Below are positions 1,069-34,229 of a stretch of DNA of 34,229 nucleotides, piece by piece. The stretch is from positions 1-34,229 of IMG/VR virus record IMGVR_UViG_3300013014_000076; one strand, 5' to 3'. Position 1 is the stretch's first letter, and every line of letters starts with the position of its first letter. The position numbers and the translations under genes were made by a program. The notes beneath the pieces are model-generated. The model made no database searches. It worked only from the letters and a program-made list of their open reading frames with translations, and was not told the origin of the DNA. This stretch comes from a virus.

Positions 1069-1098
1069 TTGCATCTATGTAGATTTGTAGATTAAGAT
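1069..1098 (+). promoter_or_regulatory. Putative promoter with embedded operator half-sites
   Basis: TTGCAT (1069-1074) and TAAGAT (1093-1098) are separated by 18 bp and resemble sigma-70 -35 and -10 boxes. Two direct TGTAGA half-sites (1078-1083, 1086-1091) lie in the spacer, where a bound repressor would block polymerase. Transcription would start near 1105, almost on the ATG at 1106. Confidence 0.5.
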
Positions 1099-32322: not shown

Positions 32323-32497
32323 CCCAGCCTTCCTTTAAATAACCGAATTCTGACGCATCGCATACGGCTCTCAAATCTAAGCACACATCGCATTTGTCCA
32401 CCCATATCCTATATTGGTGATCCTTTGGTTTATGGACTCCCCAAGTGCTACCACAAGGGGAGCAAACATTATCAGGCTGCTCCTGTGCTAGTTTCAT
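32300..32497 (-). CDS. 65-residue zinc-ribbon-like protein
   Basis: A protein starting MKLAQEQPDNVCSPCGSTWG, with CSPC and CDVC pairs separated by about 24 residues, followed by LDLRAVCDASEFGYLKEGW. The arrangement is a four-Cys ribbon with an extra Cys. It overlaps the annealing protein gene above by 26 bases. Function unknown; it may be another small DNA- or host-factor-binding protein of the early operon. Confidence 0.6.
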   Translation of the reverse strand: MKLAQEQPDNVCSPCGSTWGVHKPKDHQYRIWVDKCDVCLDLRAVCDASEFGYLKEGWDGQKVVC

Positions 32498-33023
32498 TAA
32501 ATTGGGCTTTCATGTCGTTGTATGCGTTAGTGATAGCATCTAAAAACTTAGCGTTTCCCTTGTATTTCTTGTAAGATTGAGCAAAGGCCACCTTGAGTTC
32601 GGCAGGGCTTTTTTGCGCCTTAATTTCTGCAATAGTAGCCGTTAGCGTATCTTCTGTATCTACATCATCCCACAAATCTTCCCCTACATATAGACTTAAT
32701 CCTAGACCATGTAGAGCTATTGCTTTAGCCAGACAACGCTGCATAGCAGTATTTACGGCAAAGGCATCAGGGTTAGGCACAGCCTTATTGCGGTAGTCCA
32801 TTACAGGCAATTGGGCGGTCATAGACTTGCCAAAGGCGGTTACTGTACAAAAGACCATTACTGTATCGCCAAACGATACAGGCTGACCATAAGTCCATGT
32901 AGCCTCTGGGTCGTGTTGCAACAATGTATCAACAGCCCATGCCCAACTCAGATAACTAAGATTGTTTTTCTTTTCTATCTTGCTAGAAACATCTACATTT
33001 CTAAGCTCTAAATATTTACTCAT
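32472..33023 (-). CDS. Single-strand annealing protein (DUF1071/Sak3 type)
   Basis: A 183-residue protein with NNLSYLSWAWAVDTLLQHDPEATW near the start, then VFCTVTAFGKSMTAQLPVMDYRNKAVPNPDAFAVNTAMQRCLAKAIALHGLGLSLYVGEDLW, the hallmark of the DUF1071 single-strand annealing proteins. It would coat ssDNA made by the YqaJ exonuclease and pair complementary strands, giving phage recombination and possibly concatemer formation. AAGGA lies 8 bases before ATG 33023. The C-terminal 50 residues are variable and helical. Confidence 0.88.
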   Translation of the reverse strand: MSKYLELRNVDVSSKIEKKNNLSYLSWAWAVDTLLQHDPEATWTYGQPVSFGDTVMVFCTVTAFGKSMTAQLPVMDYRNKAVPNPDAFAVNTAMQRCLAKAIALHGLGLSLYVGEDLWDDVDTEDTLTATIAEIKAQKSPAELKVAFAQSYKKYKGNAKFLDAITNAYNDMKAQFNETSTGAA

Positions 33024-33590: not shown

Positions 33591-33628
33591 TTTGCTACTC
33601 CTTCACGAGTTATTAAAAAACTACCTAA

Positions 33629-33919
33629 TTAAATCTTTACCCAAACTTGGTGAAAATTGTTTTTAAAGTTACCTTGAGTTCCTTGTTTTCTTACCCAAAT
33701 TTGTTTTTTTGTTTCATTGCGTTTTGCAATAAAAGCATCAATACAGTCTTGAGTAACTTTTTTCGCAACATCAAAAGATACTAATTTTTCATCAATAAAG
33801 AAAGTGTAATCACAAGACTCAACATCAGGAATAGCATCTAAATCTTGTTGAAAAGAAAAGTAATCAGTAGCACGATAGGAAACTTCACCACCATTTTTGT
33901 GCTGTAATTTAAATTTCAT
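33629..33919 (-). CDS. First gene of the leftward operon, unknown function
   Basis: A 96-residue protein from ATG 33919, preceded by GAAGGGG at good spacing; an in-frame upstream ATG (33955) would add 12 residues but has no ribosome site and lies by the promoter. It contains GGEVSYRATDYFSFQQDLDAI, CDYTFFIDEKLVSF, and CIDAFIAKRNETKKQIWVRKQGTQGNF, an alpha-beta pattern I do not recognise. It is transcribed from the promoter at 33962-33991 and is probably among the earliest products. Confidence 0.6.
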   Translation of the reverse strand: MKFKLQHKNGGEVSYRATDYFSFQQDLDAIPDVESCDYTFFIDEKLVSFDVAKKVTQDCIDAFIAKRNETKKQIWVRKQGTQGNFKNNFHQVWVKI

Positions 33920-33961
33920 CTTGTACCCCTTCACGAGTGTTAAAAAAGACTGCATGGATAA

Positions 33962-33991
33962 ATACTAATCTACAAATGTAGAGATTTGCAA
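33962..33991 (-). promoter_or_regulatory. Leftward early promoter with operator palindrome
   Basis: On the minus strand TTGCAA (plus-strand 33986-33991) and TAGTAT (33962-33967) lie 18 bp apart, good -35 and -10 boxes. The palindrome TCTACA-AA-TGTAGA (33969-33982) sits in the spacer, an ideal operator position. It drives the early operon from 33919 leftwards. Confidence 0.65.
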
Positions 33992-34024
33992 TAAATATAA
34001 AAAATATTTTTTAGTGTTGCTTTT

Positions 34025-34063
34025 TTGCACATTTTTAAGATGGTGTAGAATAAAATGTCTACA
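34025..34063 (+). promoter_or_regulatory. Rightward promoter and operator for the Cro-like gene
   Basis: The -10 box TAGAAT (34046-34051) has TTTGCA or TTGCAC about 15-16 bp upstream as a weak -35. The inverted repeat TGTAGA-N8-TCTACA (34044-34063) overlaps the -10 box and the likely start of transcription, so its occupant would repress the gene that encodes the Cro-like protein. AAAGGAG follows at 34063-34069, before ATG 34075. Confidence 0.65.
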
Positions 34064-34074
34064 AAGGAGCATAT

Positions 34075-34229
34075 ATGAATACTGTTGTAAATCTGCCACA
34101 AACAAGTTCATTCGACAAATTGATGGCTGAATTTGGTACTATCAAGATCCTATGCGAAAAGATAGGGGTTAAATATGTAACAGCCTATGCCTGGAAGATG
34201 CGGAACGGCATCCCTAAGAAGTGGCATAC
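34075..34229 (+). CDS. Cro/YdaS-like DNA-binding repressor, N-terminal part (continues at 1-68)
   Basis: The first 51 residues of a 68-residue protein (34075-34229, then the rest at the window start). It reads FDKLMAEFGTIKILCEKIGV and then KYVTAYAWKMRNGIPKKWH: helix-turn-helix of the YdaS/Cro type, where 'W-K-x-R-x-G-I-P' is the usual recognition-helix tail, and a final ENDLG. Such proteins are small dimeric phage repressors. AAAGGAG lies 6 bases before ATG 34075. The operator over its own promoter implies self-repression; binding at 33969-33982 and 1039-1091 is inferred from shared half-sites. No separate CI-like repressor is visible. Confidence 0.85.
   Translation, partial: MNTVVNLPQTSSFDKLMAEFGTIKILCEKIGVKYVTAYAWKMRNGIPKKWH

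Follow-up and report, generated by a model that had tools for sequence, protein, structure and literature searches.

Repression of divergent early promoters by proteins of the Cro type is classical, and the YdaS proteins of the Rac and CP-933P prophages are encoded together with YdaT and a CI-like repressor. The all-alpha Cro proteins of Xfaso 1 (3bd1), N15 (2hin/6on0) and P22 (1rzs) consist of a single HTH domain of about 60-70 residues, and each is encoded by the gene that opens the rightward side of a divergent early region, with sites over both promoters. The Cro proteins of PY54 and phiKO2 bind to a single 16-bp site, OR3 (PMC4488713, PMC4997575). The P2 C repressor, lambda CII and the omega repressor are transcription regulators that read direct repeats; P2 C, which is structurally different from the other direct-repeat readers, recognises 8-bp direct repeats flanking the -10 box in a fixed arrangement with 22 bp between their centres (PMC4752584).

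In the present study we analysed the window, a stretch of 34,229 nucleotides comprising IMG/VR record IMGVR_UViG_3300013014_000076 over its full length. The ends of the record overlap by 16 bp (positions 1-16 repeat 34214-34229), which makes the genome a circle of 34,213 bp; the break falls within the gene for a putative repressor of 68 residues, a gene which linear gene callers would therefore miss or split. This gene is the first of the rightward operon; it starts at 34075 on the plus strand, runs to 34229 and through the circular junction, and continues from 17 to its end at 69. It is followed by the genes for a 103-residue protein, an HNH nuclease, a 110-residue protein, a replication-initiation protein and a C5 DNA methyltransferase, and then by the packaging and virion genes. 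On the opposite strand the leftward early operon encodes a Sak annealing protein (32472-33023, minus strand), a RecE-like exonuclease and an SSB, and is headed by a gene at 33629-33955 (minus strand) whose real start is probably at 33919 (MKFKLQ...) and whose product gave no HTH match. In the alignment of control regions the sequence to the left of the leader varies among relatives, whereas leader and operator are kept. A leader or ribosome-site motif, CTCGTGAAGGRGT, is repeated on the minus strand ahead of leftward genes (33600-33612 and 33928-33940), and relatives retain it nearly unchanged despite the differing sequence behind it. The phage is apparently a non-integrating tailed phage, and the region between the two operons apparently its early divergent control region.

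The nearest named isolate that we found is the Methylophilales phage Venkman EXVC282S (MT375522), whose portal and Sak-like proteins are 53% and 65% identical to those of the window. Venkman likewise has a divergent junction at which a Cro/CI-like gene comes first on the rightward side, and no integrase is annotated, but it differs in the recognition helix of its Cro and its control region contains no TGTAGA boxes. Three copies of TCTAGA follow each other at exact 11-bp steps in two places of the Venkman genome (L273; 6328-6355 and 38110-38137), one of which is its divergent control region, and these are possibly the operators of its own Cro-like protein. Venkman infects Methylophilales (PMC8163748). 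The window carries a Betaproteobacteria-1 RNA (Rfam RF02932, 84.7 bits) at 756-880, after the HNH gene and ahead of the third promoter described below, which points the same way as regards the host; phage-borne copies of this RNA are present too in L077, L067, L250 and L258.

The first-pass annotation had taken the first rightward gene to be Cro/YdaS-like, and this assignment was supported by profile and structure comparisons. The 68-residue protein matches the NCBIfam family carph-isopro with an E-value of 3.6e-9 and 36.7 bits, just under the cut-off of 38, which one relative exceeds with 42.2 bits; its match to Pfam YdaS_toxin is weak (E 0.0035, 17.6 against a cut-off of 30), this family being matched by 26 of 26 aligned relatives. 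The final AlphaFold model, calculated from a more diverse alignment and replacing a first one based on 22 sequences (pLDDT 61), shows five helices with a pLDDT of 86 and an all-helical HTH; its best Foldseek matches are the Cro proteins of Xfaso 1, N15 and P22 (3bd1, 6on0, 2hin and 1rzs; E 0.003 to 0.3, probability 1.0, TM 0.65-0.80). As judged from this model the protein is a Cro/YdaS-like HTH protein, lacking the β-strand DNA-reading fold of ribbon-helix-helix box readers such as MetJ and omega. It departs from the three Cro proteins named above in its identity of about 20%, in the variable arrangement of its putative 6-bp boxes and in that no partner CI gene was found; compared with Rac and CP-933P, neither a YdaT nor a CI counterpart was recognised in the phage. 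In the aligned proteins encoded next to boxes, the predicted recognition-helix stretch, KYVTxYAWxMRN, varies at its two x positions only. An alignment scan found 74 relatives in viral contigs, and several dozen more divergent ones adjoin Sak relatives; two pattern scans of 84,980 bacterial and archaeal genomes found none, nor did a plasmid search, and a search of the sequences of solved structures returned nothing useful. A match in Pseudomonas phage Amjad_SA was dismissed, as the protein concerned, of 163 residues (E 0.1), is a different one and lacks boxes ahead of its gene.

The leftward promoter (33962-33991, minus strand), recognised by consensus match only, consists of a -35 box TTGCAA at 33986-33991, an 18-bp spacer and a -10 box TAGTAT at 33967-33962, and it is kept across 63 distinct relatives with TAGTAT, TAAGAT or TAATAT as the -10 box. 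Its spacer contains a predicted operator, TCTACA-AA-TGTAGA (33969-33982), formed by TCTACA at 33969-33974 and TGTAGA at 33977-33982, which together make a 14-bp dyad TCTA-N6-TAGA. Only one of the 63 relatives lacks the right half of this site, while some have a degenerate left half (TCCATA, ACCACA). The rightward promoter (34024-34051, plus strand) has a -35-like TTTGCA at 34024-34029, a spacer of 16 bp and the -10 box TAGAAT at 34046-34051, with 9 of 12 consensus matches. A first predicted box, TGTAGA at 34044-34049 on the plus strand, overlaps this -10 box, and a second, TCTACA at 34058-34063 (TGTAGA on the minus strand), lies N8 further on, at the presumed transcription start. The four half-sites are thus found where they had been annotated, overlapping both promoters. 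The sequence TGTAGAAT, which contains the right -10 box, is invariant in the 63 distinct relatives and present in 47 of 49 regions of the wider set, and the TG preceding TAGAAT is near-invariant even though it falls outside the canonical -10. The spacing of the second right box depends on the clade: the window clade and most of a second Cro clade have N8, another clade has N7, and a further one has no second box. For the right boxes a canonical dyad partner is missing (partner score 1.45 versus a background of 1.18), which favours a box-by-box reading. An RNA hairpin formed by the right pair was ruled out, since, with the presumed start at the second box, the transcript would lack one of the arms.

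A third promoter, laid out as the left one, is located at 1069-1098 on the plus strand (TTGCAT-CTATGTAGATTTGTAGAT-TAAGAT, 18-bp spacer), upstream of the gene for the 110-residue protein (1106-1438). Its spacer holds a predicted operator of two direct boxes, TGTAGA-TT-TGTAGA (1078-1091, plus strand), in the same register as the inverted pair of the left operator. All of the 17 relatives found with this gene have an exact second box and 16 of them an exact first box, and the arrangement also precedes a diverged ortholog in another clade. With conserved boxes at this promoter the predicted regulon comprises at least three promoters. A near-perfect box-like dyad, TGTAGC-GTATAT-GCTACA, is situated further upstream at 1039-1056 and is kept in some relatives only (L077, L085 and L087).

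TGTAGA is the commonest 6-mer of the genome (79 copies, with 69 expected from a Markov-4 model), so isolated copies within genes mean little; the genome-wide count, which is in line with the 5-mer composition, was discarded as evidence. The clustering of boxes in the control regions is not due to chance. The 119 bp between 33956 and 34074 contain four boxes against 0.06 in dinucleotide shuffles, and the 106 bp preceding the 110-residue protein gene (1000-1105) contain three against 0.07, numbers which none of 5,000 shuffles reached in either case. That the half-sites might not be conserved in relatives had been named as a possible refutation; 49 non-redundant control regions drawn from all clades average 4.24 boxes per 150 bp versus 0.11 in shuffles, TCTACA being their top 6-mer with 208 occurrences. 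The left TGTAGA and the right TGTAGAAT rank with the best conserved columns when the 63 distinct control regions are aligned, and the columns of the left operator average 1.72 bits compared with 1.15 for their neighbours. In total the boxes are kept in about a hundred related phages.

The arrangement of the boxes is far less constant. The pairs are inverted at 8 bp in the window clade, while across relatives they also occur as convergent pairs at 13 or 14 bp on the right side and as direct pairs at 8, 10, 11, 20 or 21 bp. Direct, inverted and convergent pairs of the one box co-occur even within one genome. In L160 and L041 TCTACA is located upstream instead of downstream of the right box, and in the second clade it lies 17 bp upstream of TAGAAT, where it apparently serves as the -35 box. 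The contrast between 2-bp and 8-bp spacing, to which the first-pass annotation had attached a possible difference in affinity or binding mode, is real in the window; the idea of two fixed geometries with different affinity was not supported, as spacing and orientation drift among relatives. In these comparisons the conserved item is the box and not the geometry. A fixed helical phasing of 10.5 bp for all pairs is not claimed, since the direct spacings of 10, 11, 20 and 21 bp fit it and those of 8, 16 and 19 bp do not. The coexistence of inverted, convergent and direct pairs with several spacings counts against binding by the Cro-like protein, since a rigid symmetric HTH dimer would be expected to read such pairs unequally, and so does the missing dyad partner of the right boxes.

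Natural exchanges of the first rightward gene connect the boxes with the protein. Phages of the L075 type have the same left gene and another Cro-like first gene, and none of their 30 non-redundant regions contains TGTAGA boxes, while a dyad of another sequence, TTAAG-N4-CTTAA, is found in one or two copies in all of them except one. L073 and Venkman, again with other Cro-like first genes, have no TGTAGA boxes either. In L431 the leader and gene 2 are kept, there is no recognisable Cro on the 6.1-kb contig, and all left and right boxes are gone. The independent events are few, with about three swaps and one loss, the latter on a 6.1-kb fragment, and they support an association between protein and boxes, as distinct from contact, making the Cro/YdaS-like product of the first rightward gene the likely binder of the boxes. 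In the sister group L276-L355, whose Cro-like protein is different, the group's own 14-bp dyad TTAAG-N4-CTTAA lies ahead of the Cro-like gene, close to one of the divergent promoters or to both. Two further variations in gene layout were seen: in L400 and L411 an extra stretch separates the repressor gene from gene 2, and L067 has a different insert between promoter and repressor gene.

Thus, we propose, with a probability of about 0.8, that the 68-residue Cro/YdaS-type protein binds the TGTAGA boxes in the left promoter, in its own right promoter and in the third promoter, blocks RNA polymerase and damps early transcription as a lytic Cro without CI. Binding, repression and timing are what we infer from features visible in the sequences, namely the boxes, their overlap with promoters, their conservation and their co-occurrence and co-loss with the protein. 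Boxes in the spacers, the -10 box and the presumed start would, once occupied, exclude the polymerase. As the repressor would be made from a promoter that it covers itself, negative feedback is the simplest logic, and such autoregulation would shut down the leftward (recombination) and rightward (replication) early genes after a burst. The protein would then act as a damper of three early promoters and not as one half of a lysogeny switch. A bolder version, which we offer only tentatively, is that the Cro fold may read TGTAGA as a stand-alone box of subunit size, one box per subunit, so that all pair orientations work and arrays are freely rebuilt, and that these phages, apparently devoid of CI and integrase, employ Cro purely for the lytic timing of three promoters.

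The boxes might instead be operators of some other DNA-binding protein, a small phage protein or a host factor, with Cro binding elsewhere. A candidate for such a Cro site is a second conserved dyad-like element seen in the control-region alignment, TGTTGC-TTTTTT-GCAC in the window (34015-34030; consensus about GTTGC-N6-GCAAC, and in shorter form GTTGC-N6-GCA), which lies immediately ahead of the right promoter, as a single copy in the window clade and as two copies at a distance of 21-22 bp in other clades. Moreover, the pseudo-palindromic unit T-N-TA-N-A, used directly and inverted, recalls the boxes of ribbon-helix-helix proteins. However, no recognisable ribbon-helix-helix or other regulator emerged from the small proteins scanned, L041 and L160 retain Cro and boxes in the absence of the GTTGC dyad, and the boxes disappear with Cro in the swaps and in L431, so that we regard another binder as unlikely. 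Less credible still is a reading of TGTAGA and TCTACA as mere core elements favoured by the host polymerase, even though TAGAAT within TGTAGAAT is a good -10 box and the upstream TCTACA of the second clade resembles a -35: sigma-70 would not be expected to read boxes in the left and third spacers and at the presumed start, in both orientations, the TG before TAGAAT is near-invariant, box and -10 are separate in L195 and L191, and related phages with another Cro have no boxes. A further dyad, CTAGGG-N4/5-CCCTA, sometimes degenerate, is found in the middle of the control region of many relatives (e.g. L047, L192 and L160) and also in box-free phages such as L074 and L076, and is absent from the window.

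The protein could also be a true immunity repressor silencing a non-integrated, plasmid-like or carrier prophage, in line with the minimal one-repressor switch envisaged by the first-pass annotation. In favour of this are the repression that it would exert on both early operons, the circular contig and weak matches of Pfam Phage_CI_repr to 22 of 26 members. We nevertheless hold this to be quite improbable, because self-repression by the only regulator leads to damping and not to a stable off state, no annotated gene suggests partition or integration, and pattern scans found no relatives in bacterial genome contigs. Among near-full-length records no HTH_3 (14 records) or Peptidase_S24 (21 records) match indicated a CI-type repressor, and no Phage_integrase (15 records) or Resolvase (14 records) match indicated integration functions, with the proviso that HMM searches can overlook a divergent second regulator and that a large number of small genes have no assignment. 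In contrast to the lambda-type lysis-lysogeny switch, no CI-type repressor sharing the operators and no integrase was found. The absence from these records of a recognisable CI-like repressor, tyrosine integrase or resolvase means that a lysogeny switch is not indicated, and lysogeny is unsupported. The minimal switch is consequently not supported in its original form, given at least three promoters with boxes, a second, unrelated dyad and no support for a lysogenic state.

A full-text literature search returned nothing relevant on TGTAGA as a phage repressor operator. What sets this locus apart from the known cases is the direct, inverted and convergent use of one box without a recognisable CI, unlike the single fixed arrangement read by P2 C. 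Roughly a hundred control regions, in which the recognition helix of Cro is kept while the layout of the sites changes, constitute a natural data set, and the swapped and lost cases may provide a test bed for the evolution of operators and for the role of Cro in the absence of CI or lysogeny. For a large group of uncultured phages, the analysis supplies a predicted regulon of three early promoters.
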